From: a virus
Length of the DNA stretch: 64,000 nt
IMG/VR virus record: IMGVR_UViG_3300025141_016680
Coordinates: 1 to 64,000 of that record
Direction: 5' to 3' (one strand)
A program made the translations under genes and the position numbers. Position 1 is the first letter of the stretch, and the number at the start of each line of letters is the position of its first letter. Positions 32,842 to 64,000 of the stretch are shown here, in pieces. The notes under the pieces were generated by a model. It searched no databases and was not told the origin of the DNA. It saw only the letters and a program-made list of their open reading frames with translations.

Positions 32842-33734
32842 ACTACATCCATATAGCCATCAATTACATCTTCAACAGTTCTTTGATAGGTCATCACACA
32901 TTCATGATACTGTTGATAATTTTCTGTAACTCTCTTTAGAGATTCAACCATTCCATCAAATGTATCGTAGCCCTCTCCATAGTCGGAACAATATTCTACA
33001 ATGCTTCCACCCCCTCTATGATATACCACTGGTAATCCAATAGCCAGTGCTTCAAGGACATGATTAGCTCCAGCCTCCTGGAGGGATGCAGTTAAATACA
33101 AATCACTCTCTGCAACTTTAGCTGCTACTTCCTCCATATTCAATGGTTCAATATAGGTTGAATTCTTTAATTCAAAATTAGCGGGTATTCTTCCAATATA
33201 CGTAAATTTTATATTTAATTTTTCTGCTATTTCATCTAAACCCGCATAGAAATTAAAGCCCTTTTTTTCATTTGTTGACCAATGGTGTGTAACTACTCTG
33301 GTTGCTTCTTTTAGCTCTCTGTCTCGGCGACTTTTATAAAAAATACTGTTAGGGCCATTTGGAATAACACAGTAATTTTTTTGATCATATTCAGTATAGT
33401 TTTTTGCCCACTCACTTGGAAATATTACAAAATCTGAAAAATATATCGACTGCCTTACTAACTGCGTTAATTCTGGCTTTCCATGTGTTCCACAATCACC
33501 GACACGCTGAATTATTTTTGATCCAAATCTATTCTTGTGTTCAAGATAATTCTGATACCACATACCTGAACTATTCGGTCTTGGGTCAAAGCAGAAAATT
33601 AAATCCACATTTGGCTCTAGGGAAGGAGAAATTTCAATACCCGATTGTTGTAATCTATTGTGAAGCGCTGTTACAGTTTTATTTCCGCCTCCCCAGGGAC
33701 CAGGTACAGGTCTCCTGTCAATAAAGACTCTCAT
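32826..33734 (-). CDS. Glycosyltransferase, GT-B fold (family 4-like)
   Basis: MRVFIDRRPVPGPWGGGNKTVTAL is a glycine-rich acceptor loop; YCVIPNGPNS marks the domain joint, and LYLTASLQEAGANHVLEALAIGLPVVYHRGGG is the donor site with both glutamates. At 302 aa it is shorter than the usual 360-400 aa. It overlaps the carbamoyltransferase gene by 4 nt (ATGA type). Donor and acceptor are unknown. Confidence 0.8.
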   Translation of the reverse strand: MRVFIDRRPVPGPWGGGNKTVTALHNRLQQSGIEISPSLEPNVDLIFCFDPRPNSSGMWYQNYLEHKNRFGSKIIQRVGDCGTHGKPELTQLVRQSIYFSDFVIFPSEWAKNYTEYDQKNYCVIPNGPNSIFYKSRRDRELKEATRVVTHHWSTNEKKGFNFYAGLDEIAEKLNIKFTYIGRIPANFELKNSTYIEPLNMEEVAAKVAESDLYLTASLQEAGANHVLEALAIGLPVVYHRGGGSIVEYCSDYGEGYDTFDGMVESLKRVTENYQQYHECVMTYQRTVEDVIDGYMDVVCQQK

Positions 33735-35362
33735 TTATCCTTCTTTGAGACTAGCAATCCACAATCTCTAAAGTATAAGAAATCAATATTTGTTCGTAAG
33801 AAACAGCTAATAGCGTGTTCAGGAGTTTCACATATTGGCTCTCTATCATTAAAGCTAGTATTTAGTAAAATGGGAACTCCTGTTTTTTCGTTCCACATCG
33901 TTAAAAATCCATGATACCAGGGATTATCATTTTCTGTTACTGTCTGGAGCCTTGCTGTATTATCTACATGCAGCACAGCTGGTATCTTATCTAGAACTTC
34001 TTCCTTAAAGTTTAAAACAAAGCTCATATATGGACTATCAACATCTGATTCGAACCAGTTTTTAGTCTCCTCACGAAGAATAGAAGGAGCGAAAGGCCTA
34101 TACCACTGCCGATGCTTGACTTTCTCATTTATCATATCTTTCATGTGTGGGCTCCTGGGATCTGCTAGTATGCTTCTATTACCAAGTGCTCTACGACCTG
34201 ACTCCGATCCTCCTCCAAAAACAGAAACTATATTTTGATCAGCAAGAAGTTGAATTACTTCTGGATCATCTGCACTTCTTGTTACAACACTCTCTGCCTC
34301 TTTCTCGAGACAAGTCTTTATTTCTTCTTCTGTGTATGTCTTACCAAGATATGGTGTAAAGCTATCATTCCATTCTATTCTCGGATTATCTAGCACATGA
34401 TGCCAGACAAATTGTGCTGCACCAATTGGAAGACCACCATCATGAGGAGTGGGTGTAACATACACATTTTCGATATGAGGAAACCAGTCCTGTATCTTTC
34501 CCACCATTACAGAATTTAGGGATACGCCTCCAGCAAGACAAAGATTTTTAGTTGGTACCTGTGACAATATTGTCTCTAGCACATTTTTAAATAGATTTTC
34601 TGTAGCTTGTTGTAGACCGGCAGCTAGGTCAAACCTATCCTGCTCACTTTGTTCAGCAATCATGGCCCAGGGATTTAGATAGGGATGTTTTGGATCCTTA
34701 CCTGGGACCAGTGCTCCCTTAGGCTGATTTGTGGGCTTGTGTGAAGCAATTTGTAGATCCACAGTCAGCATTTTTTCAAAATCATTGACAAATCTTTCTG
34801 GATTACCCAAAGCTGCCATAGCCATAACTGATCCGGCTTGGTGGCCTCGGGGCCAGCCAGATTGTAGCTGAAAAATATATCGTGTTGCCCGGGTCCATAA
34901 TCCGCCAAGATTAATTTGAGAAATGGGAAAGGAGTGAAGATGCTGGATCTTATTGTCATTTCCTGTCCAAATTGTGAAGGCTGTTACAAAATTATTCTCT
35001 TCGGCGCCCCCGCCATCCATTGTTATAATTGTTGCCTCGGGAAGATTGCTTGAAAAGAAGGTATTTGCTGCATGTGACTTATGATGCCCTATCACATATA
35101 AATTTCCCCCATTTTCACCTATGACTTCTTTTATTTTTTGAAATGATTCATCGTAGTGTGTAGTTTTTGACACAGGTGAACACAGTGCAAGATGCTTTAT
35201 CTCAGAAAAATTCTCATAATTCTCCATCAAAAAAGACAGAGAGTCTCCGGGTGGCTCCTTCTCTCTAATAAATCTCTCATACTCATCATGACGCACGGGT
35301 CGACCGTCTTCCATAATAAAGTAAGAACAATCATGCCCTGACCAAGATCCTGCAATTTTCAT
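33731..35362 (-). CDS. Carbamoyltransferase, NodU/CmcH family
   Basis: These enzymes transfer a carbamoyl group from carbamoyl phosphate to a sugar hydroxyl. The N-terminal Kae1-like domain shows GSWSGHDCSYFIMEDG, IGHHKSHAANTFFSS (metal histidines) and TIITMDGGGAE; LCLAGGVSLNSVMVG and FGGGSESGRRALGNRSILADPR mark the ATP region. The C-terminal YrdC-like part has NTARLQTV and ILLNTSFNDREPI. At 543 aa it is near full length. It probably makes a carbamoylated sugar in the glycan. Confidence 0.88.
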   Translation of the reverse strand: MKIAGSWSGHDCSYFIMEDGRPVRHDEYERFIREKEPPGDSLSFLMENYENFSEIKHLALCSPVSKTTHYDESFQKIKEVIGENGGNLYVIGHHKSHAANTFFSSNLPEATIITMDGGGAEENNFVTAFTIWTGNDNKIQHLHSFPISQINLGGLWTRATRYIFQLQSGWPRGHQAGSVMAMAALGNPERFVNDFEKMLTVDLQIASHKPTNQPKGALVPGKDPKHPYLNPWAMIAEQSEQDRFDLAAGLQQATENLFKNVLETILSQVPTKNLCLAGGVSLNSVMVGKIQDWFPHIENVYVTPTPHDGGLPIGAAQFVWHHVLDNPRIEWNDSFTPYLGKTYTEEEIKTCLEKEAESVVTRSADDPEVIQLLADQNIVSVFGGGSESGRRALGNRSILADPRSPHMKDMINEKVKHRQWYRPFAPSILREETKNWFESDVDSPYMSFVLNFKEEVLDKIPAVLHVDNTARLQTVTENDNPWYHGFLTMWNEKTGVPILLNTSFNDREPICETPEHAISCFLRTNIDFLYFRDCGLLVSKKDK

Positions 35363-48938: not shown

Positions 48939-51900
48939 TTATTCCTCTATCTCCTCAAGCATCATCTTGAATCTCTTTCCTGTCTTATTGTTGACAACAC
49001 ATAGGTAATCCTCTTCCTCAACGATTGTCCAGTTGCCTCTCTCATTCTTAAGATGAAGGTCTGCTGTGTAGACGTTTGCCCATCGAGTCGCATCTGATCC
49101 TATATTGTAAACATTGTGGGTGCCTGGTAAGACATCACCGTTGAAAATTGCAGCTGTTGAGAGTGTTCCCGCTGATGACCCGGTCGGGCCGACCCTAAGT
49201 GTTCCGCTTATAACTGCATCGCCTCCGAGAACAGTTGTTCCTCTTAGTCCTGCGCTACCTTGTGAACCAACAACGCCGGTGACATATAGAATTGTATCAT
49301 CACCAGTTATTCTCGGAGCTCCGATGAGAACCTCACCTGAGGCGCTGGCTACCAGCGTATATACTGGAGGTAGTACTCCGTTAGCAACTTGATGTGCAGC
49401 TCTAAATGTACCACTTACAATGGCATCACCTCCGAGAACAGAAGTTCCTTTAACAGAGCTACCTTGTGAACCAACAACTCCTGTAACATAGAAGATCGAA
49501 TCAGTGCCTGGGGCGAATGGTTCTCCTACGAATACATTTCCATCGTGAGTAATTCTCATTCTCTCAGTGAGATCAGCATCATCATCTGTGTTTGTTGCAA
49601 ATGTGAGATTTGTATCGCGTTTTGTTGTTGTTGTTCCCGCAGATGAGTCTCTTTCTGCACGAATTGCAGCACCTATCGCATCTATATCAATCTCTGAGGA
49701 GACATCGAATGCTATTCCTGCAAACTCATCTATTCCAACAACCCTATTCTTTAGAACCAGTGTGAAGTCATTGAGTGTGTTTTCTGGCATTGACGGATTA
49801 CTTGCTGACATCTCAACCATCAGACGGCCGTAAGGTGCTCCTGTGCTCGCTATTCCGATGCCGACACGATCATCATACCCATTAACGTAAAGCATGTGTG
49901 TGCTGTTTTTAGACTCAACTCTAAAATCGACTTGTTGATCTCCATCTTCATTGATGATAACTGATGGTCTTGTAATACCTGTCATTCTCAATACATCGCG
50001 AGAAGTACCGCCATCATTAATATTAAAGATAATGTCTTTGTTTTGTGTTGTATTGTAGATGTTCCAATCACCAGAATTTCCATGAGAAAATTGTAGAGGA
50101 TAAGTTCCAGCATCTTTAAGATAGACGTCACCCCCATCTACATCTAATATGATATCCCCTGCAACATCAATAGTGAGATCGCCAGAACTTAGATCTATTT
50201 CTGTTCCGTCGATTGTAATGTTGTCGACCTTCACTCCGCCGTCGGCGGTAAGCACCCCATCGACATCAAGTGTACCGGTTATTAGCATCTCAGACACGGT
50301 GCCAGACAGATAGAGATTATTGCTTATGAGAACACTATCTGATGAAATATGTGTCTGTGTGCCCTTAATTGACCCTGTCAACGTGATGTCAGAGACATTT
50401 CCAGAGAGATAGGTTCCAGCTGGCCCGACTGATAGAATCGTGGTTCCATTAGCCTGGAGTGCGACGCTGGAAGCACCATCTAGTGTGAGTGAGCCTGTTG
50501 ACTCTATCTCTGTTGCGACAGACGACTCGATGACCTTCGATGCGCTGTTCTTAATCGTTCCAGTTAGATTGAAATCTGAAACTGATCCAGAGAAGTGTGC
50601 ATTGTCTGTGGTTGCCAGCTTGGCGACTGTGAGCAGATTAGAAGTTTTGTTGAATACGAGACCTGAATCTCCAGCAAATGCTCCACCATCATTAAATTGA
50701 ACCTGGGTATCTGATCCCGCTGGAGTTCCACCGGTTGCTGAAATTGTTAAAGCACCTGATGAACCCGTATTAATTGTGACATTTGTTCCAGCGATAAGAT
50801 ATTCAGATCCATTGGCCAAAGTTGTTAGCGATCCACTTAGTTTGTCAGCAAAGACTGAACCTGAGAGGTACATGCTATTATCGACCTTGATCGAATCAGC
50901 AGATATATGTGTCTGTGTGCCTTTAATAGATCCTGTCAGTGTGATATCAGAGACATTTCCAGAAAGATAGGTTCCGGCTGGACCAACTGACAAGATCGTG
51001 GTTCCATTTGTCTGAAGGTTGACACCTGTTTTTCCGTCTAGTGTGAGAACACCAGCTGTTGTCTCTATCTCAGTTGCCACAGAGGACTCTATGACCTTAG
51101 AAGCACTATTTTTAATAGTTCCTGTCAGTGCGAAATCTGAGAGAGATGATGAGAGATAGAGGCCGTTTGTGATACCAACACCGATGCTCACATTTCTTTG
51201 ATCATCGATAGCTATTACAGTTGTTCCATCTTCCTGAAGATTTATACCTGTCTTACCATCTAGTGTTAGAATACCCGCATCAGTTTCTATCTCTGTTGCA
51301 ACTGAAGATTCGATAATCTTGGTTGCACTGTTTTTAATAGTTCCTGATAGTGCAAAGTCTGATACAGATCCTGAAATGTGCATATTTCCGTCAAATAGAG
51401 ACGGTGCAAGTATATGCATGTTTCTTCCATGTGCACCTGAGACAAGAAGTCCCTGCTGAATGTATGCACTACCTGAAATCGATAGTGAGCCAGTTGATGT
51501 TGCATCTATCTCTGCGACAATCTTCTCTGCATAAAATGTTCCAGAGACGATAACATCGCCACCAAAAACAGCTGATCCTGTATTTGATGTGTTTCTTGAT
51601 CCCGCTGTACCGCTTACAAAGAAAAATACGTCAGATCCCACATCAGTCGTATCATATATTAACCCTAATCCTGGCCCTGCTATAGAAAGAGAGCCTGTGG
51701 AAGTTGCCTTATGACCTCTATCATTGAAGACAGTACTACTTCCGCCGCCAGCGATTCCGGTGAATGTGATAGTGTCACTGGTGGCATTTGTTGTGATTAC
51801 CATGTTTTGTGCTGCAGCAAAGGTGATTGTATCACCTGACTGATCTGCGACAACATCATCCTGTCCAGATACTGCTACTGTTCCAAATGCATTGCTTGCT

Positions 51901-54900
51901 GCACCAAGGTTGAGTGTAACTGATCCATCTGAACCTGTCGTTATGGCAAGACCACCGTGTCCAACCAGATATGGATTTCCATTTGCCAAAGTTGTTAGTG
52001 ATCCACTTAGCTTATCAGCAAAAACTGATCCTGATAGATGCAATTCACTTTGAATAGCTCCGGACACGTAAATATCAGGTGGTGCAACACCTAGCGTATT
52101 TGAACCGCTCAAATCACCAATTGTAATTGATCCTGAATTTAGCTTAATGTATGAACTACCGCTGTGCTGGAGATCAACTCCTGCTGCCCCATCCAGTGTC
52201 AGGGTGCCTATAGCTGTTTCGATCTCTGTTGCGACTGAGGACTCTATAACCTTGGCAGCACTGTTCTTAATTGTACCAGTAAGTGAGAAATCAGAGACTG
52301 AAGATGAGAGATACATTCCTGCAGGTCCAACTGATATAATTGTTGTCCCATTGGCCTGTAAGTTGACACCGGTCTTTCCATCAAGTGTAAGTGCTCCAGC
52401 ATCTGTCTCAATCTCTGTTGCGACTGAGGATTCAATTATCTTAGCGGCACTATTTTTAATTGTGCCTGTTAGGGAAAAGTCTGACACAGATCCTGAAAGA
52501 TAGGTTCCAGCAGGTCCAACTGAAAGAACTGTTGTACCGTTGGCTTGCAAGCTGACACCGGTTTTGCCGTCTAATGTAAGTGCTCCAGCAGCTGTCTCAA
52601 TCTCTGTTGCGACTGATGACTCAATGACTTTCGATGCTGAATTTTTAATTGTTCCTGTTAGAGCAAAGTCTGACACAGATCCTGAAAGATGTGCATTGTC
52701 TGTTGTGTGTAGTTTTGCTGCTGTTAATAAGTTAGAAGTCTTGTTAAATGTTAGACCAGAATCTCCACCAAAAGATCCTCCGTCATTAAACTGAACCTGT
52801 GTATCGTCGCCGCCAACTCCAAGCCCTGTGGCTGAAATTGTCAGAGCTCCGCTTGAGCCTGTGTTAATTGTGATATTTGCACCGGCGATCATGTACTCGG
52901 TGCCGTCGGCTAGTGTTGTTAGAGATCCGCTTATCTTATCTGCAAAGACCGCACCTGAAAGATGCAGCTCACTGAGAATGGCACCTGAGACGTATATGTT
53001 CGGTGGTGCAACTCCAAGTGTCTTTGAGCCACTGAGATCGCCCAGGACAATTGACCCTGAGTTGAGTTTGATGTATGCACTTCCGCTATGTCGTAATTCA
53101 ACGCCTCCGGCGCCATCTACATTAAATGATCCGCCTAGTGTCTTAATTGTGGTTCCAGCAGAAGCCTCTAGTGCAACAGCTGTATCACTCTTTATTGTTC
53201 CTGTGACAAGGAAGTCAGAGACTGATCCAGAAAGATAGACGCCCTTGGGACCAACCGAGAGTATCTGTGTTCCGTTAGCCTGGAGTGAGACGCCTGCCTT
53301 ACCATCTAATGTCAGGGCACCAGCATCTGTCTCAATTTCTGTTGCGACTGAGGACTCTATGATCTTAGAAGCACTGCTCTTTATTGTGCCAGAAAGTGTA
53401 AAGTCAGAAACTGAGCCTGAGAGATAAATTCCCTGTCCGGCGGCTCCAACTGTTACGTTTCTCTGATTATCAATAGCTATTACAGTTGTCCCATCTTCTT
53501 GAAGATTTACCCCAGTTTTTCCATCTAGAGTTAATGCACCGGCATCTGTCTCAATTTCAGTTGCGACTGATGATTCTATGACCTTGGCAGCACTATTCTT
53601 AATGGTTCCTGTGAGTGCAAAGTCTGACACAGATGATGAGAGATAAGTTCCAGCAACCCCAATAGAAAGAACTGTGGTACCGTTAGCCTGGAGATTTACT
53701 CCAGTTTTTCCATCTAGGGTTAGAGCACCTGCATCTGTTTCGATCTCAGTTGCGACTGAGGATTCTATGACCTTTGATGCTGAGTTCTTAATGGTTCCTG
53801 TGAGTGCAAAGTCTGACACAGATGATGAGAGGTAGGTTCCGGCGGGTCCAACTGATAATATTGTTGTTCCATTTGCCTGGAGAGCGACGCTAGATGCTCC
53901 ATCTAGTATGAGTGATCCTGTCGACTCTATTTCTGTTGAAACAGATGATTCGATAACTTTAGCTGCGCTATTCTTAATTGTTCCTGTGAGTGCAAAGTCT
54001 GAAACTGATCCAGAGAGGTGAATCTGTTTACCTGCTGAACCAATTAGTACATTTCTACCTGTGTCAATGACTATTACATTGGTTCCATCTTCTTGGAGAT
54101 TTATCCCAGTCTTACCATCCAGTGTCAGCGCTCCAGAATCGGTCTCAATTTCTGTCGCAACAGAAGACTCTATGATCTTAGATGCACTATTTCGTATTGT
54201 TCCTGTTATTTCTAATCCAGAAACGGATCCTGAGATGTATACACCCTCTGGTCCAACAGAGAGCATTGTTGTGCCATTTGTCTGTAGGTTGACACCGGTC
54301 TTTCCGTCTAGTGTCAGTGACCCAGCATCTGTTTCGATCTCTGTTGCAACAGATGATTCGATGATCTTAGATGTGCTGTTTCTAATTGTTCCAGTTAGCA
54401 AGAATCCTGATACTGATCCCGAAAGATAAACACCTGCAGGCCCAACTGCGAGCATCTGTGTTCCGTTGGCCTGGAGTGCAACGCTGGAAGCACCGTCTAA
54501 TGTAAGCGATCCTGTCGACTCTATTTCTGTTGCAACAGAAGACTCTATAACCTTTGATGCTGAATTCTTGATTGTTCCTGTGAGTGCGAAATCTGATATA
54601 GATGACGAGAGATAGGTTCCTGCTGGGCCAACAGAAAGAACTGTTGTTCCATTGGCTTGGAGATTTACCCCAGTTTTTCCATCTAGAGTTAATGCACCGG
54701 CATCTGTCTCAATTTCAGTTGCGACTGATGATTCTATGACCTTGGCAGCACTATTTTTTATTGTGCCTGTGAGCGCAAAGTCAGAGACAGATCCTGAAAG
54801 TTGAATCTGCTTGCCTGCTGTGCCAATTATTACATTTTGCCCGTTATCAATGGCTATAACTGTCGTGCCATTTTCTTGAAGATTTATTCCTGTCTTACCA

Positions 54901-56237
54901 TCTAGTGTAAGTGCTCCAGCTGTTGTCTCAATCTCAGTTGCTACAGCTGATTCAATTACCTTAGCAGCAGTATTCTTTATTGTTCCTGATAGAACGAAGT
55001 CTGATACAGAGCCAGAGATGTAAATACTGCCAGAGCCAACTGACATCAGCATAGATCCACTAGTCTGTAGAATGACTCCAGTTCTTCCGTCTAGTGTCAG
55101 TGCACCGGCGGCTGTTTCTATCTCAGTTGCGACTGAGGACTCAATTACCTTAGTTGCAGAGTTCTTAATCGTTCCTGTTAGTGCAAAATCTGAAACAGAG
55201 GATGAGAGGTAGAGACCTTTTGTAGCGCCGACACCGATGCTCACATTTCTTTGATCATCGATAGCTATTACAGTTGTTCCGTTTTCTTGGAGATTTATAC
55301 CTGTTTTTCCATCTAGTGTTAGGGCACCAGCATCTGTCTCAATTTCGGTGGCAACAGAAGACTCAATTACCTTAGCAGCGCTGTTCTTAATTGTTCCTGT
55401 TAGTGCAAAATCTGAAACAGAGGAAGAAAGATAAGTTCCAGCAGGACCAACAGATAAAACTGTTGTTCCATTGGCTTGTAAGTTGATTCCTGTCTTACCA
55501 TCTAGTGTCAGGGCACCAGCATCTGTCTCAATTTCTGTTGCGACTGATGATTCTATAATCTTAGATGCACTATTCTTAATTGTGCCAGTTAGTGCAAAAT
55601 CAGAGACTGAGGATGAGAGATAGGTTCCTGCTGGTCCAACAGATAGCACCGTTGTTCCATTAGCTTGGAGATTTACCCCTGTTTTTCCATCTAGTGTTAG
55701 GGCACCAGCATCTGTTTCTATCTCTGTGGCCACTGAGGATTCGACTATCTTGGCTGCAGTGTTCTTTATTGTACCAGTTAGTGCAAAATCAGAGACATTT
55801 CCTGAAATATGCATGTTTCCGTCGAACAGTGATGGTGCAAGTATGTGCATATTTCTTCCATCTGCACCTGAGACAAATAGTCCGTGCTGGATGTATGCGC
55901 TACCTGAAATTGATAGTGAGCCTGTCGATGTTGCATCAATTTCTGCAACAAGCTTCTCTGTATAAAATGTTCCGGAGACTACTACATCTCCTCCGAAAAG
56001 TGTAATGTTTCCTGGATGTGTTGTCCCTGTTCGACCTCTTCCGTCTACTGTGCCTGAAACAAACAGAAAGACATCATCGCCAACACCTTTAAACATTGAT
56101 GTTGCTGAGTATCCACCTTCCAAATTTGAGGCATCTGAGGCACTATAGATCGCAATTGATGCATGGGTTCCAGAAATTGCACCTGACGCTATTAGCTGTG
56201 AAACCCTTATTTGTTTGGCTGAAAAATCCTTTGGCAT
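48939..56237 (-). CDS. Giant repetitive tail fibre protein (2432 aa)
   Basis: From about residue 145 the protein is built from about 20 units of 62-75 residues of the form SDFALTGTIKN / ESSVATEIET / LTLDGKTG / LQANGTTVLSVGPAGTYL, broken by unique stretches near 350-480 residues before the end. A domain DATSTGSLSISGSAYIQ to MHISG occurs twice. The C-terminal end (RWANVYTADLHL, NWTIVEEED, KTGKRFKMML) is a common fibre tip. No enzymatic motif is seen. The ATG at 56237 has GAGG upstream. It is probably a long receptor-binding or side fibre; GC content is above average. Confidence 0.82.
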   Translation of the reverse strand: MPKDFSAKQIRVSQLIASGAISGTHASIAIYSASDASNLEGGYSATSMFKGVGDDVFLFVSGTVDGRGRTGTTHPGNITLFGGDVVVSGTFYTEKLVAEIDATSTGSLSISGSAYIQHGLFVSGADGRNMHILAPSLFDGNMHISGNVSDFALTGTIKNTAAKIVESSVATEIETDAGALTLDGKTGVNLQANGTTVLSVGPAGTYLSSSVSDFALTGTIKNSASKIIESSVATEIETDAGALTLDGKTGINLQANGTTVLSVGPAGTYLSSSVSDFALTGTIKNSAAKVIESSVATEIETDAGALTLDGKTGINLQENGTTVIAIDDQRNVSIGVGATKGLYLSSSVSDFALTGTIKNSATKVIESSVATEIETAAGALTLDGRTGVILQTSGSMLMSVGSGSIYISGSVSDFVLSGTIKNTAAKVIESAVATEIETTAGALTLDGKTGINLQENGTTVIAIDNGQNVIIGTAGKQIQLSGSVSDFALTGTIKNSAAKVIESSVATEIETDAGALTLDGKTGVNLQANGTTVLSVGPAGTYLSSSISDFALTGTIKNSASKVIESSVATEIESTGSLTLDGASSVALQANGTQMLAVGPAGVYLSGSVSGFLLTGTIRNSTSKIIESSVATEIETDAGSLTLDGKTGVNLQTNGTTMLSVGPEGVYISGSVSGLEITGTIRNSASKIIESSVATEIETDSGALTLDGKTGINLQEDGTNVIVIDTGRNVLIGSAGKQIHLSGSVSDFALTGTIKNSAAKVIESSVSTEIESTGSLILDGASSVALQANGTTILSVGPAGTYLSSSVSDFALTGTIKNSASKVIESSVATEIETDAGALTLDGKTGVNLQANGTTVLSIGVAGTYLSSSVSDFALTGTIKNSAAKVIESSVATEIETDAGALTLDGKTGVNLQEDGTTVIAIDNQRNVTVGAAGQGIYLSGSVSDFTLSGTIKSSASKIIESSVATEIETDAGALTLDGKAGVSLQANGTQILSVGPKGVYLSGSVSDFLVTGTIKSDTAVALEASAGTTIKTLGGSFNVDGAGGVELRHSGSAYIKLNSGSIVLGDLSGSKTLGVAPPNIYVSGAILSELHLSGAVFADKISGSLTTLADGTEYMIAGANITINTGSSGALTISATGLGVGGDDTQVQFNDGGSFGGDSGLTFNKTSNLLTAAKLHTTDNAHLSGSVSDFALTGTIKNSASKVIESSVATEIETAAGALTLDGKTGVSLQANGTTVLSVGPAGTYLSGSVSDFSLTGTIKNSAAKIIESSVATEIETDAGALTLDGKTGVNLQANGTTIISVGPAGMYLSSSVSDFSLTGTIKNSAAKVIESSVATEIETAIGTLTLDGAAGVDLQHSGSSYIKLNSGSITIGDLSGSNTLGVAPPDIYVSGAIQSELHLSGSVFADKLSGSLTTLANGNPYLVGHGGLAITTGSDGSVTLNLGAASNAFGTVAVSGQDDVVADQSGDTITFAAAQNMVITTNATSDTITFTGIAGGGSSTVFNDRGHKATSTGSLSIAGPGLGLIYDTTDVGSDVFFFVSGTAGSRNTSNTGSAVFGGDVIVSGTFYAEKIVAEIDATSTGSLSISGSAYIQQGLLVSGAHGRNMHILAPSLFDGNMHISGSVSDFALSGTIKNSATKIIESSVATEIETDAGILTLDGKTGINLQEDGTTVIAIDDQRNVSIGVGITNGLYLSSSLSDFALTGTIKNSASKVIESSVATEIETTAGVLTLDGKTGVNLQTNGTTILSVGPAGTYLSGNVSDITLTGSIKGTQTHISADSIKVDNSMYLSGSVFADKLSGSLTTLANGSEYLIAGTNVTINTGSSGALTISATGGTPAGSDTQVQFNDGGAFAGDSGLVFNKTSNLLTVAKLATTDNAHFSGSVSDFNLTGTIKNSASKVIESSVATEIESTGSLTLDGASSVALQANGTTILSVGPAGTYLSGNVSDITLTGSIKGTQTHISSDSVLISNNLYLSGTVSEMLITGTLDVDGVLTADGGVKVDNITIDGTEIDLSSGDLTIDVAGDIILDVDGGDVYLKDAGTYPLQFSHGNSGDWNIYNTTQNKDIIFNINDGGTSRDVLRMTGITRPSVIINEDGDQQVDFRVESKNSTHMLYVNGYDDRVGIGIASTGAPYGRLMVEMSASNPSMPENTLNDFTLVLKNRVVGIDEFAGIAFDVSSEIDIDAIGAAIRAERDSSAGTTTTKRDTNLTFATNTDDDADLTERMRITHDGNVFVGEPFAPGTDSIFYVTGVVGSQGSSVKGTSVLGGDAIVSGTFRAAHQVANGVLPPVYTLVASASGEVLIGAPRITGDDTILYVTGVVGSQGSAGLRGTTVLGGDAVISGTLRVGPTGSSAGTLSTAAIFNGDVLPGTHNVYNIGSDATRWANVYTADLHLKNERGNWTIVEEEDYLCVVNNKTGKRFKMMLEEIEE
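50300..55810 (-). repeat. About 20 tandem protein-level repeats within the giant fibre gene
   Basis: Units of about 190-225 nt encode nearly the same amino acids (SDFALTGTIKN...GTYL), but third-codon bases differ from unit to unit. Two unit types alternate, one ending LSVGPAGTYL and one with an inserted VIAIDDQRNVSIG segment. Unique stretches interrupt the array near 50.6-50.9, 51.4-52.1 and 52.7-53.2 kb. Confidence 0.85.
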
Positions 56238-56870: not shown

Positions 56871-58160
56871 TTAAATTATTCTTGATGCCAATGTTGCCAA
56901 CTTTGACCTCTCTCCCTTGGTTAGGCCAATGTGACCCGCTAGCGGTGCATCCTTAAATTTCTCTATAACAATTGTCAATCCATTAGAGAGACTATCAATA
57001 TAAGGTGTATCAACCTGATCTGTGTCACCCAATAAAACAAGCTTAGAATTCTGCCCCACTCTCGTTATTATTGTCTTTAGCTCATGAATTGTTGCATTTT
57101 GAGCCTCATCAACAATGATAAAAGAATCATTAAATGTTCTGCCTCTGATGTGTGATAGCGGTGCTATTTCTATTTTACCCTTATCCTTCATTAGCTCAAA
57201 GTATGTTACATCAGAAAAAATTTCTCTAAAGTTATCAGCAATTGGAAACAGCCATGGGGCCATTTTTTCGTTTATATCCCCTGGGAGATAACCAATGTCT
57301 CGGCCGACAGGCTGAATTGATCTTGTGATGACAACTCTTTTGTATCTTTCCTCATGTAATCCTGATATCGCTGCAGCAAGCGTTAAATAAGTCTTTCCAG
57401 AACCTGCAATTCCTGTCAATGTAACTAATGGTAGAGATTCTCTTGTTAGAAGATCTAGGGCAAATTTTTGCTCCTTGTTTCTAGGCCTAACAGAAACAGA
57501 CTCACTCACCTCTCCACGAATTTGACAAATTTTATTTCCATGCACTGCACCTAACGCTGATTTATTTGCTGATTTTAAAATTGTAAATTCATTTGGTCTA
57601 AAATCTTCATCAAATATTGAGACGGGTAAGTGACCCTTTTCATAAAATTCATCTATTAGATCATCTGTGTCAAGCAAGATTTCAGTTTGACCTGTATAGA
57701 AGTCTCCCTCCTCAACATAGATTGCATCCTTATAATAGTCTTCTGAAGATATTCCTAATGCATCACACTTAACTCTAAAGTTTATGTCCTTTGTGACAAC
57801 AATTACAGATTGTCTTGTGATCTCAGTTAGTTTAGCTGCTACAGCTATAATTCTATTATCAGCTGCCGATGAATCGAGTCCTGCGGGTACATTTGTGCAA
57901 TGGTTTATCTCAACTCGAATAGTCTGATCATTGGATACTGTAACTCCTTCATGGAGGCTTCCTGCGCTTCTTAGTTCATCAAGAAATCGATTTACATATC
58001 GTGCATTTTCTCCAAGAAGGCCTGGTTTATCCTTAAATCTATCGAGCTCATCTAAGACAACTAGAGGGATAACTACGTCGCTTTCTGGAAATGAGTGTAT
58101 TGAACATTTGTCATAAAGCAGCACAGAGGTATCAATTAAAAATATTTTTCTTTGGTTCAT
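56871..58160 (-). CDS. phoH: PIN-domain PhoH-like ATPase (PhoH2 type)
   Basis: The N-terminal PIN ribonuclease-like domain has IFLIDTSVLLYD, VVLDELDRFKD and VIVVTKDINFR (the acidic active-site residues). The C-terminal PhoH ATPase has the Walker A GIAGSGKT near 250-257, RPRNKEQKFALDLL, and FIIVDEAQN as Walker B. PhoH2 proteins of this layout act as RNA helicase/ribonucleases; PhoH genes are common in marine phages, but their role there is unclear. It faces the only plus-strand gene across a 60-bp gap. Confidence 0.92.
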   Translation of the reverse strand: MNQRKIFLIDTSVLLYDKCSIHSFPESDVVIPLVVLDELDRFKDKPGLLGENARYVNRFLDELRSAGSLHEGVTVSNDQTIRVEINHCTNVPAGLDSSAADNRIIAVAAKLTEITRQSVIVVTKDINFRVKCDALGISSEDYYKDAIYVEEGDFYTGQTEILLDTDDLIDEFYEKGHLPVSIFDEDFRPNEFTILKSANKSALGAVHGNKICQIRGEVSESVSVRPRNKEQKFALDLLTRESLPLVTLTGIAGSGKTYLTLAAAISGLHEERYKRVVITRSIQPVGRDIGYLPGDINEKMAPWLFPIADNFREIFSDVTYFELMKDKGKIEIAPLSHIRGRTFNDSFIIVDEAQNATIHELKTIITRVGQNSKLVLLGDTDQVDTPYIDSLSNGLTIVIEKFKDAPLAGHIGLTKGERSKLATLASRII

Positions 58161-58899: not shown

Positions 58900-60093
58900 T
58901 CACATACCGCCCAATAATGATATTGCTATGAGCCCTGGAACACTCTCATTTACGTAAATTCCAGAAAATAGAGTCTCGGTTCTTCCACCCACATAGGAAA
59001 GTGCTGACTCTAACTTTTTACTAACATCAGGATCTCCTGCCATTACAGAGGTTGCCACAAGTAGCATGGCACCTGTTTTGATAGATCCGGCAGGTTCAGG
59101 ACATGGGGATGACTTGATGCATCCTTGAAACAAAGCTGACCCAAGATCTCTTCTGCTTGGATCTCTTGAAATGGTCGATCCCACTATCATTCTTCCTGGT
59201 GTTCCCAGGCATCTCTCAAGATCCTTAGAGTCAAATGTCTGAATTGGTGAAGACTCTGAGGAAAGCTTTAGAACTTGCGCAATTAGCTTTGCAAAGTTTT
59301 TATTAGCTGATGGATACATGTTTAGCATTCCTACCTTGCCTCTCAGTAGCTGTAACTGTCTCTCATTATCGATGACAATGTGTGGGTGACTTTGCAAACC
59401 CTTTAATGCTGATTCATAATTTGTAGAAATTGTAGGATTGAGCAATTCTTGAGCTGAGGGCTTTGTTAGAATATAAACAACTTTTCCGCTTGCACCACAT
59501 GACTTTAAGTGTCGAGTCATGGAATTATGAAGAACAGAGCACGCACTTCCCGTTCCTCCGCCTCCACCAGCGAGAACAAATATCCAGTCAATAGAGCCTA
59601 TTCTTGTTCTAAGGGCATCCTCTAGTAGAGCACTATTTTCTCCCAGAACCTGTTGCCCAAGATTTACATCTTTTCCAACTCCGTCGGCGCCAGGAATAAG
59701 AAGAAAGTGATCAGGTGGAACTCCATCTGGTTGATCCTTAATAGTGGTATTAACCAAGATTGTTTTGCTGAATCCGAGATCTAGAAAGGCCTTTGCTAGC
59801 TTTCCACCGCCGCCTCCAACACCAATAAAGGCACACTTAATGGCACTTGCAGCAGAATTTTCTGGGAGCATTCTCTCATCATCTTCTGCGGGATCATCAT
59901 CATAAGCTTCAACAAAGTCAAACCCTAGATCATCACCAGGGTTGATGGTGTCATAAAAGCTATCTTCTTTATTTTCTTCTTTTTCAGACATGTTTTTTTC
60001 CTCTTCTGTACTTATAGGTTTCAAATCTTTTGGTGCCTCTAATCTCTTTGAAGTATGTTTATCTCCACGTAAATTTTTTATAGAGGAAGCCAT
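58900..60093 (-). CDS. FtsZ/tubulin-like GTPase fold protein
   Basis: The 397-aa protein has an acidic, probably disordered N-terminus of about 80 residues, then FIGVGGGGGKLAKAF (nucleotide-binding loop T1) and the tubulin signature FVLAGGGGGTGSACS at 173-185. The FtsZ T7 loop (usually N-x-D-F-x-D) reads NKNFAK near 264-269, so both catalytic acidic residues are replaced. The ATG at 60093 follows GGAGAG by 5 nt; a TTG at 60120 is less likely. Phage tubulins can build filaments that centre the phage DNA, but this one is closer to FtsZ than PhuZ by eye. Confidence 0.75.
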   Translation of the reverse strand: MASSIKNLRGDKHTSKRLEAPKDLKPISTEEEKNMSEKEENKEDSFYDTINPGDDLGFDFVEAYDDDPAEDDERMLPENSAASAIKCAFIGVGGGGGKLAKAFLDLGFSKTILVNTTIKDQPDGVPPDHFLLIPGADGVGKDVNLGQQVLGENSALLEDALRTRIGSIDWIFVLAGGGGGTGSACSVLHNSMTRHLKSCGASGKVVYILTKPSAQELLNPTISTNYESALKGLQSHPHIVIDNERQLQLLRGKVGMLNMYPSANKNFAKLIAQVLKLSSESSPIQTFDSKDLERCLGTPGRMIVGSTISRDPSRRDLGSALFQGCIKSSPCPEPAGSIKTGAMLLVATSVMAGDPDVSKKLESALSYVGGRTETLFSGIYVNESVPGLIAISLLGGM

Positions 60094-60181
60094 ATGGTCT
60101 CTCCATCCTATCGACTTCAATAAATATGAAGCAGCTAAAGTAGTGACCTATTTCATTGCTAATGATGATAGATCAGTAAAA

Positions 60182-60549
60182 TGGTGGACCCGGCGGGAGT
60201 CGAACCCGCGTCCGAAATAGCTTCAAATTCAAGTCATTCACAGGTTTGTCTAATTTACTATCACAAACTAGAAAAGATAGTCAGCTTTCCCTGCGCTTAC
60301 TGACCTGTTGCGCCCCACCTGTTTCCAGGAAACCATTATGATTTTTTATTTTCGCAGGAATCTACCTGTTATTCGATGTTGGGTAACAAGGTCACCGAAG
60401 ACCCCGCAAATTAGGCCGCTAGGCGGACAGATTCGAAGTGATTATTGTTATTGGCAATTATCGTTTTGAAACCGCATTTTAGGTCTGCTATTTCGTGTGA
60501 CCACCTGCACTATTCTTCTCTACCACCTCGTCGAAGCCATTTCGGGCCC
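60182..60549 (-). ncRNA. ssrA: Transfer-messenger RNA (tmRNA), complete, one-piece
   Basis: The 5' end begins GGGCCCGAAATGGCTTCGACG and the 3' end is CGGACGCGGGTTCGACTCCC followed by GCCGGGTCCACCA. The ends pair into a 7-bp acceptor stem with G3-U70, the alanine identity pair, and the T-arm GCGGG/CCCGC holds TTCGACT. The encoded CCA is present. The tag reading frame lies inside (60411-60455). The 368-nt length and the order of parts fit the standard bacterial one-piece form, not the permuted form. It starts 1 nt after the stop of the Hc1-like gene. Confidence 0.93.
60411..60455 (-). other. tmRNA tag reading frame (ANNNNHFESVRLAA)
   Basis: Within the tmRNA, GCC at 60453-60455 is the likely resume codon, followed by codons giving a 14-residue tag ANNNNHFESVRLAA and a TAA at 60411-60413. 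The tag starts with Ala and ends with LAA, the ClpXP/ClpAP recognition end common in bacteria. The resume codon is inferred from this pattern; Ala-Asn-Asn starts are frequent in tmRNA tags. Confidence 0.8.
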
Positions 60550-60550
60550 A

Positions 60551-60742
60551 TTAGTTATCCTTACCCACGGCAAGAGAAATCTTTACAAGATCTGCTGCTC
60601 TTTGCTTAATGAGTCTAAGACCCTTTCTAGCTCGAACACCAGCTGATTTATTTCCATTTGCATTTTTGTGAACATCAAGATCAAGGCTCTCAACCAAGAC
60701 CTTGAGCTCTTGCCATTCATTTAATAGATTAGAATCTGCCAT
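60551..60742 (-). CDS. Hc1-type histone H1-like nucleoid protein (63 aa)
   Basis: The protein has an N-terminal helix (LLNEWQELKVLVESLDLD) and a basic part KNANGNKSAGVRARKGLRLIKQRAADLVK, matching the N-K-x-A-G-x-R-x-R-K-G/S-x-x-x-L-K pattern of bacterial Hc1/histone H1-like proteins of Chlamydiae and Bacteroidetes. These bind and compact DNA. AGGGG is 9-10 nt before the ATG. It is immediately upstream of the tmRNA, and may help pack viral or host DNA. Confidence 0.75.
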   Translation of the reverse strand: MADSNLLNEWQELKVLVESLDLDVHKNANGNKSAGVRARKGLRLIKQRAADLVKISLAVGKDN

Positions 60743-60744
60743 TT

Positions 60745-60987
60745 TTATAACCCCTGGTCTATCTTAATTAATCCGCTTGTTTCGTTTTTATCCTCTATTG
60801 ATGTATGAACAAGCCTTGCTATTTTATTCATTATCTCTCTATCTTCCAGCTCAAGAGATAAAAGATAGATAACTTTCTTCTTCTGAAACTCATTTACACC
60901 ATATCTCATAATTTCTTTTACTATTTCTCGACAGGTTATGGATTGCTCGACAAGAAGATCCTTTTCAGTCTTACCGTACTTCTTCAT
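60745..60987 (-). CDS. Small hypothetical protein (80 aa)
   Basis: A helical, charged protein (MKKYGKTEKDLLVEQSITCREIV, then QKKKVIYLLSLELEDREIMN) without a known domain. The ATG at 60987 is chosen because GGAGG lies 5 nt upstream; the ATG at 61014 would include that site. It overlaps the zinc-ribbon gene by about 17 nt. Function unknown. Confidence 0.65.
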   Translation of the reverse strand: MKKYGKTEKDLLVEQSITCREIVKEIMRYGVNEFQKKKVIYLLSLELEDREIMNKIARLVHTSIEDKNETSGLIKIDQGL

Positions 60988-61462
60988 TATTTCCTCCAGA
61001 CTCGATCTCATCACGTCTCAAATACACATCAATTTTTATTTTTCCGGACTCTAAGAGAATCAGATGTTTCATTTGTGTCGATCCTGCAATTCGTTTTTTT
61101 GCAATGACTATAGGTGTATCAAAAATATCACACTCAAAATGATGTGCCACCTGCTCCCAGGTCGAAATATCACATTTATGATTGTCAAGAATGATCTGTA
61201 TATTTTCAGGTAATGTTAACCTGAGATCCTCAACAGTGATTAGAGAAAGTGTATCTTCAGACCCATAGAATAGCTCTGATTTACAAAAATCAATGATCTT
61301 GTGAATAACTCCGCAGTTATTGCACTTAGAAAACTTTTCAATGGCTTCACCATCATTGTCACACTTTGAATAAACTACAAACTTATGAAAAAGCGGCTCA
61401 TCTCGCTTTTTGAATTGCGGCAGCATGCAGTGACACTGAATTAAGTGTTTGGTGCCGATCAT
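60971..61462 (-). CDS. Zinc-ribbon hypothetical protein (163 aa)
   Basis: Cysteines C10 and C12 (IQCHCM) and C47 and C50 (KCNNCG) could form a zinc ribbon near the N-terminus. The rest is mixed alpha/beta (WEQVAHHFECDIFDTPIVIAKK, then KIKIDVYLRRDEIES) with no recognised fold. It is in a series with two other small genes between the GroEL-like and Hc1-like genes. Nucleic-acid or protein binding is a guess from the ribbon. Confidence 0.6.
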   Translation of the reverse strand: MIGTKHLIQCHCMLPQFKKRDEPLFHKFVVYSKCDNDGEAIEKFSKCNNCGVIHKIIDFCKSELFYGSEDTLSLITVEDLRLTLPENIQIILDNHKCDISTWEQVAHHFECDIFDTPIVIAKKRIAGSTQMKHLILLESGKIKIDVYLRRDEIESGGNNEEVR

Positions 61463-61465
61463 TTT

Positions 61466-61702
61466 TTAAGCTATGTTAAATTCATTCTTTATTTGATTGA
61501 TAGCTGCCTCGATATCAGTATATCCCATAGCAAATGCCTGTGACACTGTGGCATCAACTAATTCACTAAGGTATGCTAAATCTTTTTCACTTAGACTCAT
61601 TAGCTCGGTCTGGTTTGCCTGTGCTATGTTTTCTCGTAGCTTTGACTTTGTGAAATCAATCAAGTTGCGGACACTAGAATTAATTACAGAATCGATTTTC
61701 AT
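61466..61702 (-). CDS. Small helical hypothetical protein (78 aa)
   Basis: All-helical sequence (VINSSVRNLIDFTKSKLRENIAQ, then LSEKDLAYLSELVDATVSQAF) ending in a short INQIKNEF helix. No motif recognised. GGAGAATAAAA precedes the ATG, a good ribosome binding site. Gene order GroEL-like, this gene, zinc ribbon suggests co-transcription with them. Function unknown. Confidence 0.6.
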   Translation of the reverse strand: MKIDSVINSSVRNLIDFTKSKLRENIAQANQTELMSLSEKDLAYLSELVDATVSQAFAMGYTDIEAAINQIKNEFNIA

Positions 61703-61753: not shown

Positions 61754-63121
61754 TTATTTATCTTCAACAAGAGCGTGTCCTATAGAAGTAATAGATCTTA
61801 ATGAAGACATACTGTTTCGAATAGCCAAGTATGCACTAGCTAGCGGAATGTATTTCTCTGTTGATTGAAATATGTCTTTAATCACCTTGTCAATTGGTGA
61901 GCTTGGTTCTTCTATGTCTATTCTTCCTGCCTCCAGACAGCCATGTCTAATAAATGACTGGTACATCCTAAGTGATGTATCTATCTGCTCAATGCATGTT
62001 CTTTCTTTGCTTATAAGATTACTTCCCACACTAATCATAACTCTTTCACCAGAGAGAGACATTATCCTCTTTTCAAACAGACTTCTCGCCTCTCCTGTTC
62101 TCTTCTCATCTTTTTCACTTTTTAAATAATCTAGCTGTCTTCTTACAGAATTTCTTGAATCAGGATTGAATACTGAAGTCTGATTTTCTGATATATGGAT
62201 GCTAGAGATCACCGGTAATTCTTCCTTGATGGCTGTGGATATTAATTCTCCCTTGTAAGAAGAAACAATATCTGTGCCGCATGTTGCAGCAATATCATTT
62301 AAAATATTAACAGTCTCCTCTGTGAGACCAACAGCGATAGGAATTACATCTAGGGTTCGTCTTTGTGTGTTTACAAAGATTGTTTGTAACACATCGGGCT
62401 TAAACTCTCTTGCAAATATTGCATAAGGCTCTTTATTTTCAGACGCTCGCTCTAGCAAGTGATGAATTTCAGAGACAGATTCTATCATTCCATCGATGAG
62501 TATAACTCTTACATCCCTTCTCTTCCAGACCTTCTTACCCATTAAAAAGTGATAGTCTACACCCACATTAAACTGGTAACCGCTTACCTTCTCAATTACT
62601 GTGTGTGACCTCTGCGACTTCTCTACATGCATTGATGTATTGGGCCCTGCAAGCTCTATTGATTTATCTAAGATTTGCTTTGTGCCCGGATCGAGATTTT
62701 GACTGCTTGTAATAGTTTTCCAAATATTTCCATCTAGTGTCTGACCGTGATTATAGATTTCTTTAAGCCAGCGTTTCTCTGTTTCTTCTAACTCACTAAT
62801 CATCTGACGATGACTGCACCCACCTGCTAAAAGTTTCATACAGGGATGAAGTGATTTTACTAAGATCTGAAAGCAAAGATTTCCGCTAGCACCAGAAATC
62901 AGCTCAGCGCTTGTGCAGGCATCAAGAATAATTGGCTGTATTAACCTATTGTGAAATCCCTTATCCTTAAAATAGATGTAAGATTGCAAAGGCTCTGTGC
63001 TAACAAAATTACCTCGAAAGATATTTTTGCTTCTATTAGTTAGCTCTAGCTTTTGAATTAGATCTACTTGTGCTAAAAGATCCCTTCTAAAAGCAGCCTG
63101 GTTTAATCCCTTTACGAACAT
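61754..63121 (-). CDS. Divergent GroEL-like chaperonin lacking ATP-site motifs (455 aa)
   Basis: Residues about 178-290 match the GroEL apical domain: GYQFNVGVDYHFL (compare G-x-Q-F-D-R-G), VRVILIDGMIESVSEIHHLLE, EPYAIFAREF then LQTIFVNTQRR and NILNDIAATCGTDI. About 325-400 match the intermediate region: RRQLDYLK, ARSLFEKRIMSLSG, VMISVGSN, ERTCIEQIDTSL. The equatorial ATP motifs are lost: GASGN (76-81) replaces D-G-T-T-T, and there is no L-G-P-K-G. At 455 aa it is about 90 shorter than GroEL. It may be a chaperonin relative or a modulator of the host GroEL ring. It follows the PrkA gene. Confidence 0.8.
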   Translation of the reverse strand: MFVKGLNQAAFRRDLLAQVDLIQKLELTNRSKNIFRGNFVSTEPLQSYIYFKDKGFHNRLIQPIILDACTSAELISGASGNLCFQILVKSLHPCMKLLAGGCSHRQMISELEETEKRWLKEIYNHGQTLDGNIWKTITSSQNLDPGTKQILDKSIELAGPNTSMHVEKSQRSHTVIEKVSGYQFNVGVDYHFLMGKKVWKRRDVRVILIDGMIESVSEIHHLLERASENKEPYAIFAREFKPDVLQTIFVNTQRRTLDVIPIAVGLTEETVNILNDIAATCGTDIVSSYKGELISTAIKEELPVISSIHISENQTSVFNPDSRNSVRRQLDYLKSEKDEKRTGEARSLFEKRIMSLSGERVMISVGSNLISKERTCIEQIDTSLRMYQSFIRHGCLEAGRIDIEEPSSPIDKVIKDIFQSTEKYIPLASAYLAIRNSMSSLRSITSIGHALVEDK

Positions 63122-63124
63122 AAA

Positions 63125-64000
63125 TCATGAATCTCTCCACAGATTATTGGCTGCAAATGTTAGCACTTCTTCTGCAGAGTATTCATTATACCCATATTCA
63201 TCAATTAATGTTTTCACCATTTCTGTGTATTTCTTTTTCTGATCTTCATCACGAGATTTGCTTCTTGTAACAATTCTTGCAATATCCTTCACAGAGGTGA
63301 TCAAATAGCCTTCAATTGCTTCCTTGAGTGGGCCGTAACTGGTATAATCCACTTTCTTACCACGTCTCATTTTTGCAAACATATAGGCAGTTACATCGCT
63401 TCTAAATCCATCTCTAGAAGATCCTACGATTCCAATTTGCTCCTCAATTGATCGCATAAAAGTTTCATCAGGATCTCTCTCTTCTCTAGTGATTTTATCC
63501 TTAACCTTGGCAGCAGTTGTGTAGCATTCAGCATTGTCAAGATAAGAATCAAATAAAGACTGCGCCTGCTCCTCATACGCTGCTATGAATGCCTTAGCAA
63601 TTTCATTCTCAAGAATGTTTAGATATTCCTCTCGAACAATTTTCTGAAGTATTTCAAGATAGAAGTCTTTCTTCTCCTCAGAAACAATTTGCTCTTTAAC
63701 TTGCTTAATCAGTGCCTCGATGACAGAATTTGGTGTCATCATATTCTTTTCAGAATCTGACAAAGCATTATCAAGTGACTTCATTATAAACCTTGTTGAA
63801 ATTCCATCCAGGCCTTCATGCATGGCTTCGTCTCTTAAATCTCTGATGTCTATTTTTTTAATTCTTCCATTCTCAATGACATCCTCGCCATTGTATATTT
63901 TCATCTTTGTTAGCAAATCACACTTTTGTGAAACTTGCAATCTTGACATAACAGAAAACATAGAAGCGATTTCAAGTGTATGTGGAGCAATATGTGCTGT
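63125..64000 (-). CDS. prkA: PrkA-type serine protein kinase, partial (N-terminus off right edge)
   Basis: The frame is open to the window edge (292 codons to TGA at 63125); the codons before the internal ATG at 63961 read THIAPHTLEIAS-like sequence, so the gene continues beyond 64000. Seen are AHIAPHTLE, MSRLQVSQKCDL, RFIMKSLDNAL and the YLDNAECYTTAAKVKDKIT...DETFMRSIEEQIG block of the PrkA C-terminal domain. PrkA is a bacterial AAA/serine kinase tied to starvation and sporulation responses. The kinase/P-loop part lies off-window, so activity cannot be judged. Confidence 0.88.
   Translation of the reverse strand, partial: TAHIAPHTLEIASMFSVMSRLQVSQKCDLLTKMKIYNGEDVIENGRIKKIDIRDLRDEAMHEGLDGISTRFIMKSLDNALSDSEKNMMTPNSVIEALIKQVKEQIVSEEKKDFYLEILQKIVREEYLNILENEIAKAFIAAYEEQAQSLFDSYLDNAECYTTAAKVKDKITREERDPDETFMRSIEEQIGIVGSSRDGFRSDVTAYMFAKMRRGKKVDYTSYGPLKEAIEGYLITSVKDIARIVTRSKSRDEDQKKKYTEMVKTLIDEYGYNEYSAEEVLTFAANNLWRDS

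Follow-up and report, generated by a model that had tools for sequence, protein, structure and literature searches.

Most of the known chaperonins that operate free of an ATP cycle are the BBS proteins of eukaryotes, and their mechanical role is still argued. BBS6 and BBS12 have altered ATP motifs and connect a client to CCT (PMC5534436). Among group I chaperonins, chlamydial GroEL2 and GroEL3 are divergent extra paralogues found beside a normal GroEL (PMC1892554), and the chaperonin of phage phiEL is ATP-dependent and keeps its nucleotide pocket (PMC7185714). Here we describe cpnS, a gene for a short chaperonin-like protein, in a 64,000-nucleotide stretch of viral DNA (hereafter, the window) that forms part of the incomplete, 98,044-base IMG/VR record IMGVR_UViG_3300025141_016680. 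On balance, sequence and structural models incline us to regard cpnS as a group I chaperonin paralogue that neither binds nor hydrolyzes ATP any longer and serves as a non-cycling adaptor or scaffold. Being compact, viral, and of group I, and encoded along with an active GroEL and a constant group of small genes, it would offer a tractable test of what the chaperonin fold can do when free of ATP.

CpnS shares a three-domain fold, and homology over most of its length, with canonical GroEL/HSP60, including the GroELs of phages phiEL (gp146) and AR9, which are likewise viral. It differs from the phiEL protein in lacking the nucleotide pocket and the segment corresponding to GroEL residues 421-490. 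With the BBS proteins (MKKS/BBS6, BBS10, and BBS12) it has in common a chaperonin architecture, a changed ATP motif, fast divergence, and an active chaperonin alongside; however, those proteins originated from group II CCT8 and carry insertions, whereas cpnS is a viral, group I protein shortened by deletion. Since cpnS is nearest to group I GroEL and is not enlarged, it does not share a BBS-type origin, and BBS6/BBS12 would be its nearest analogy in working mode rather than its relatives. The chlamydial proteins are similar to cpnS in being divergent group I paralogues next to a normal GroEL, and the NCBIfam GroEL3 model matches cpnS (E = 3e-17), although cpnS scores 62 and 36 bits with the chlamydial GroEL2/3 models, far below their cut-off of 600. 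Moreover, GroEL2/3 are proteins of cells, and their models are nearly full length (506-533 positions), whereas cpnS has lost an equatorial block. As for gene neighborhood, the genes upstream of cpnS are those of the prkA-yhbH-spoVR operon of Thermus phage YS40 (genes 056-059), in which region a short chaperonin has not been reported. PrkA and SpoVR also occur in Ralstonia phage RsoM2USA, the description of which mentions neither a chaperonin nor GroEL (PMC8504454). In the open-access literature we found no description of a phage GroEL with PrkA, nor of two GroELs in one phage.

Homology, motif losses, and predicted structure of cpnS

The gene is an uninterrupted open reading frame (ORF) of 455 codons on the minus strand (61754-63121) encoding a homologue of group I chaperonins. 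Its product matched PHROG_5725 (E = 7.9e-25), the GroEL subfamily of NCBIfam (E = 4.5e-25), and cpn60 in the PDB (E = 5.4e-19); judged by these matches, its homology to GroEL exceeds chance. With the GroEL equivalog model TIGR02348 it scored 78 bits, below the curated cut-off of 582, and a Pfam search did not detect PF00118 (Cpn60_TCP1). Automatic annotation either misses cpnS, for want of a Pfam match, or would call it GroEL.

A reading of the DNA made from its letters alone (hereafter, the sequence-only reading) had described a protein with clear apical and intermediate GroEL features, about 90 residues short and missing the equatorial D-G-T-T-T and L-G-P-K-G motifs. An alignment of cpnS with GroEL from E. 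coli and with 14 canonical GroELs from phages agreed with this description in every part and extended it. CpnS has ASGNL where GroEL has DGTTT, lacks TLGP, and has also lost D398, GGG, and D495 of the nucleotide site. Relative to E. coli GroEL it is 93 residues short. The apical (181 residues) and intermediate (55+32) parts have their full lengths, and the shortening of the equatorial domain (123+63) lies almost wholly in its C-terminal half (63 residues vs. 118-140). The deleted block, GroEL 421-490 (70 residues), contains the inter-ring contacts E434, R452, E461, S463, and V464, and the columns E434, R452, and E461-V464 are deleted in 32-43 of 43 sequences, while the lower-hinge glycine, G410, is kept in 42 of 43. 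As aligned, cpnS has lost the parts that serve chaperonin cycling, i.e., the nucleotide site and the inter-ring block.

An AlphaFold2 model of cpnS, built on an alignment of 38 short homologues, had a predicted local distance difference test score (pLDDT) of 87.9 and a predicted template modelling score of 0.74. The best 50 matches in a Foldseek search of the PDB were all chaperonins, with GroELs in the leading places. The template modelling score (TM), normalized to the query, was 0.83 to GroES-bound GroEL (8wuc) and ~0.51 to apo GroEL. A second family member, L022, was modelled with a pLDDT of 89.5 and likewise matched GroEL (TM 0.71 to the GroES-bound and 0.42 to the apo state). In both model and alignment, the equatorial, intermediate, and apical domains stand in GroEL order, and these predictions indicate that the three-domain chaperonin fold is retained. 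Thus, structure prediction and overlay on GroEL, as proposed in the sequence-only reading, returned a chaperonin and not an unrelated fold. The raised-apical conformation is that of a single-chain prediction; since matches of cpnS to predicted canonical viral GroELs superpose at a high root-mean-square deviation (10-15 Å), the models suggest that this state is not merely the default prediction for every viral GroEL. With regard to heptameric assembly within a ring, the N- and C-terminal intra-ring strands are retained, and the stem-loop hairpin is modelled in L022; in cpnS from the window, the stem loop (residues 29-41) is disordered in the model, with a pLDDT <50.

A clade of short viral chaperonins

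A search for close relatives in viral contigs with the single cpnS protein gave no match, since the family diverges fast, and it was recovered by anchoring on the neighboring gene, prkA. Among 80 viral loci so anchored, ~50 encode a homologue directly or shortly downstream, mostly of 370-480 amino acids. A second scan, independent of PrkA, used a degenerate DNA pattern from part of the apical motif, and all 29 matches in viral contigs were short chaperonins. The sole bacterial match in the motif scan was not a chaperonin, and a recent bacterial origin of cpnS was rejected. Altogether, 65 distinct short homologues were recovered, all viral. In a search of isolated phages in the collection, cpnS matched canonical GroELs only, and the product of its neighbor, g163, matched none. 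CpnS belongs to an uncultured lineage of large (jumbo) phages.

The losses seen in the window are those of the family. When the 65 short proteins were compared to 19 canonical sequences (E. coli numbering here and below), P33, T89, D398, G414, and D495 were each kept in none of the short and in all of the canonical proteins, and D87 in 3 of 65 vs. 19 of 19. The nucleotide might conceivably still be used by way of a site formed from other residues, given that column 52 is D in 31 of the 65 and that the start of the loop-helix that follows the lost DGTTT is still Gly/Ser-rich. However, every member lacks the two C-terminal contributors (479-481 and 495) as well as most positions that bind phosphate, and we consider such a site very unlikely.

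In the tree, the short proteins form one clade apart from canonical GroEL (support 100/100) on a branch of 2.45 changes per site. The ratio of nonsynonymous to synonymous substitution rates (dN/dS) of cpnS was 0.13-0.14 in the two pairs unsaturated at synonymous sites; this is clearly purifying, although prkA in these phages has a ratio two to four times lower. These sequence data indicate that selection has kept cpnS throughout a large-phage clade. What had looked like a lone degenerate copy is thus one of 65 homologues in a single clade under purifying selection, and a pseudogene or assembly artefact was rejected on the grounds of conservation and dN/dS. Similarly, we give almost no credence to cpnS as the decaying relic of a duplicated groEL. 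The very long branches and fast protein evolution would fit decay, but dozens of intact copies over deep branches, purifying selection, invariant residues, and a constant gene order have in our view already refuted it.

Apical surface and the canonical GroEL of the same phages

The apical domain carries a motif conserved across the family and new to it, DGxIExVSEIHxLL...VxxT...N, and the family-wide residues are D224, G225, I227, E228, V230, S231, E232, I233, V258, T261, and N265. V258 and N265 are invariant in the short proteins, T261 and G225 nearly so, and position 234 is mostly H, D, or N. At groove positions Y199, Y203, L234, L259, V263, and V264 the hydrophobic share falls from 0.87-1.00 in canonical GroELs to 0.05-0.56 in the short proteins (e.g., 5% at L234 and 21% at Y199), and among the tested residues of the groove for GroES and substrate, F204 and L237 alone remain hydrophobic throughout. 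Judged by conservation, this groove has been largely replaced by a family-specific apical surface. With hydrophobicity no longer consistent at most groove positions, GroEL-type apical substrate binding by cpnS is unlikely, and the conservation of a surface that has ceased to be greasy suggests a single specific partner, not unfolded proteins generally.

The sequence-only reading had also proposed that the protein could bind substrates or host GroEL without ATP cycling, or act as a scaffold. A non-cycling binder or scaffold agrees with the chaperonin fold and the loss of the ATP site; binding of substrates in the manner of GroEL agrees poorly with the altered groove, and host GroEL need not come first as a partner, since the phages encode a canonical GroEL of their own. 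Phage takeover of the host chaperonin is generally common, and no part of cpnS is better conserved than its apical domain, as might be expected of a decoy that binds host GroEL or GroES and redirects the host chaperonin during infection. Nevertheless, the GroES-binding residues are mostly lost and the phages bring their own GroEL, making a decoy quite improbable.

All eight cpnS-bearing records of at least 235 kb (G002, G003, G004, G005, G043, G044, G058, and G059) also carry one canonical, full-length GroEL elsewhere, and a 140-kb cpnS record has a GroEL fragment at the contig end. Therefore, large-phage GroELs are not the sole chaperonin layer in these viruses. A search of the large cpnS records for a GroES-family protein found none, although a distant, gp31-like co-chaperonin could escape it. 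Since cpnS-free relatives carry GroEL as well, the 8/8 co-occurrence alone is no argument for an interaction; we lowered its weight accordingly and take it as context and as weak evidence of contact between cpnS and GroEL.

The presence of canonical GroEL in all large cpnS records, without a detected GroES, allows a tentative alternative in which cpnS is a regulatory subunit of mixed single rings with the phage GroEL, holding some apical domains in the raised state and blocking the double ring. The inter-ring contacts fall in the deleted block, the terminal strands of the intra-ring sheet are retained, as is its stem-loop hairpin in the model of L022, and both models are closer to the raised, GroES-bound state than to apo GroEL. 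Against mixed rings, relatives keep GroEL without cpnS, long distances separate the two genes in the large records, the window's cpnS has a stem loop modelled with low confidence, and single-chain predicted conformations are weak evidence.

The cassette and candidate clients

As the sequence-only reading claimed, cpnS adjoins prkA, beginning 3 nucleotides downstream of its stop codon (Table 1). The part of PrkA in the window matches PF06798 (E = 1.3e-78), and the full 645-residue protein matches its two domains (E = 4e-144 and 1e-77). In the PrkA-bearing branch, the gene order is yhbH-spoVR-prkA-(~90 amino acids)-cpnS-(g78)-g163-g89-g63-(tmRNA)-(FtsZ-like)-phoH.

Table 1. Features of the cpnS locus (window positions; positions above 64,000 are those of the record)
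Feature	Position	Strand	Family or comparison
cpnS, short chaperonin-like protein, 455 residues, without ATP site	61754..63121	minus	
Position of lost DGTTT phosphate-binding motif (residues ~77-81, GASGN)	62879..62893	minus	Compared with GroEL of E. coli and 14 canonical GroELs of phages
Family-specific apical motif IDGMIESVSEIHHLL (residues 209-223, helix H region of GroEL groove)	62453..62497	minus	
Truncated C-terminal half of equatorial domain (residues ~395-455)	61757..61939	minus	GroEL 421-490 deleted
prkA, 3' part (full gene reaches record position 65062)	63125..64000	minus	PF08298, PF06798
spoVR, beyond window	~65090-66436		PF04293
yhbH, beyond window	~66397-67566		PF04285
g78, short ORF following cpnS, helical, varies within family	61466..61702	minus	
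g163, conserved Cys/His-rich cassette protein, probably Zn-binding	60971..61462	minus	
g89, small conserved cassette protein	60745..60987	minus	No family match
g63, histone-H1-like (Hc1) cassette protein	60551..60742	minus	PF07432 (E = 2.5e-9)
Transfer-messenger RNA (tmRNA) gene, at same place in some relatives	60182..60549	minus	
phoH (PIN-PhoH), usual downstream cassette boundary	56871..58160	minus	

PrkA is, however, not the defining neighbor that its adjacency implied. Phage records of 340 and 309 kb carry cpnS and lack PrkA, and at the PrkA-free loci inspected the upstream part is different, with a small ORF of coiled-coil type and a gene in divergent orientation, while the downstream cassette is unchanged. 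A third sample, anchored on PhoH, agrees. Wherever more than 2.5 kb follows cpnS, g163 and g89 are present (83/83 loci), with g63 in 80 of them; by contrast, g163 and g89 occur in none of 42 PrkA- or PhoH-anchored loci without cpnS. One locus that starts within the cassette (L131) was set aside from this count, in which the loci are partly non-independent and some share a contig. The constant context of cpnS is therefore the cassette g163-g89(-g63), with PrkA common but optional. If cpnS were a subunit of the PrkA-YhbH-SpoVR stress module, or an adaptor for it, this would account for its position, in the same orientation and directly or shortly downstream of prkA in most PrkA-anchored loci. 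The genomic distribution already weakens this idea: the two PrkA-free records are joined by several others, with the same downstream cassette where there is room for it, and some PrkA phages (L062, L077, and L079) lack the cassette. We consider a PrkA-module role improbable, and PrkA as an obligatory partner was rejected by the PrkA-free records. Mapped on the PrkA tree, cpnS switches between present and absent at least four times. The 445-residue ORFs that follow prkA in L062, L077, and L079 were considered as hidden short chaperonins and rejected, since they are PhoH.

The loss of the ATP engine in a protein that remains intact in dozens of viruses, within a fixed cassette, suggests that in these phages a folding machine has become a passive part for docking. 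As an adaptor, cpnS would hold one specific phage protein on its rebuilt apical surface. Since the cassette is all-or-none, the products of g163, g89, and the Hc1-like g63 are the first candidates for this client, with the phage's own GroEL as a second candidate. The g163 product has invariant residues H6, C10, C12, C47, and C50 and found no credible match in Pfam, PHROGs, NCBIfam, or the PDB. Less certainly, the retained intra-ring strands could dock cpnS on the phage GroEL ring, or the client could be handed to that ring, and such a link would resemble the way in which BBS6/BBS12 join a client to CCT. A possible but doubtful elaboration is that these are two-chaperonin phages, in which the ATPase-dead partner of an active GroEL selects one cassette-encoded client through its rebuilt apical surface and presents it to the GroEL ring, or caps that ring in place of GroES.

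Several points weigh against an adaptor of this kind. The N-terminal equatorial alignment is uncertain, with ~10% identity between short and canonical proteins, and almost half of the short proteins have the aspartate at position 52. No canonical GroEL was seen in the window's own record (98 kb, incomplete), and related phages without detected cpnS (G011, G061, and G063) also have one. Furthermore, the cassette could persist through synteny of one phage lineage and not through function.

Other features were noted around the cassette. The window and its upstream flank (63125 to record position ~67566) hold a complete prkA-spoVR-yhbH operon of the bacterial stress type in a phage, and PrkA is 66-75% identical across many viral contigs. 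The tmRNA just downstream of the cassette encodes the tag ANNNNHFESVRLAA and occurs at the same place in L008, L014, L022, L026, L030, L031, L037, and L041, with others lacking it. Between tmRNA and phoH lies an FtsZ/tubulin-like gene (58900-60120, minus; PF00091, E = 1.9e-6; NCBIfam ftsZ, E = 3e-8), present in only part of the relatives; its product was rejected as a client, since it is found at only a subset of loci. Farther away, a highly repetitive protein of 2432 residues (48939-56237, minus), with repeats of SVSDFALTGTIKNSA and VATEIETDAGALTLDGKTG, is probably a tail fibre, and the guanine-cytosine (GC) content of its gene is raised relative to its surroundings. A Nol-like carbamoyltransferase (33731-35362, minus; PHROG_1601, E = 3e-112) lies inside a long run of genes for proteins of 200-540 residues, and a glycosyltransferase is encoded at 16007-17257. 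Near the GC-rich end of the record there is a short sigma-70-like ORF (L003 4945-5424, minus; record ~84944-85423), and an N-terminal (K/R)QLRRIIREE motif is common to several ORFs of that region.
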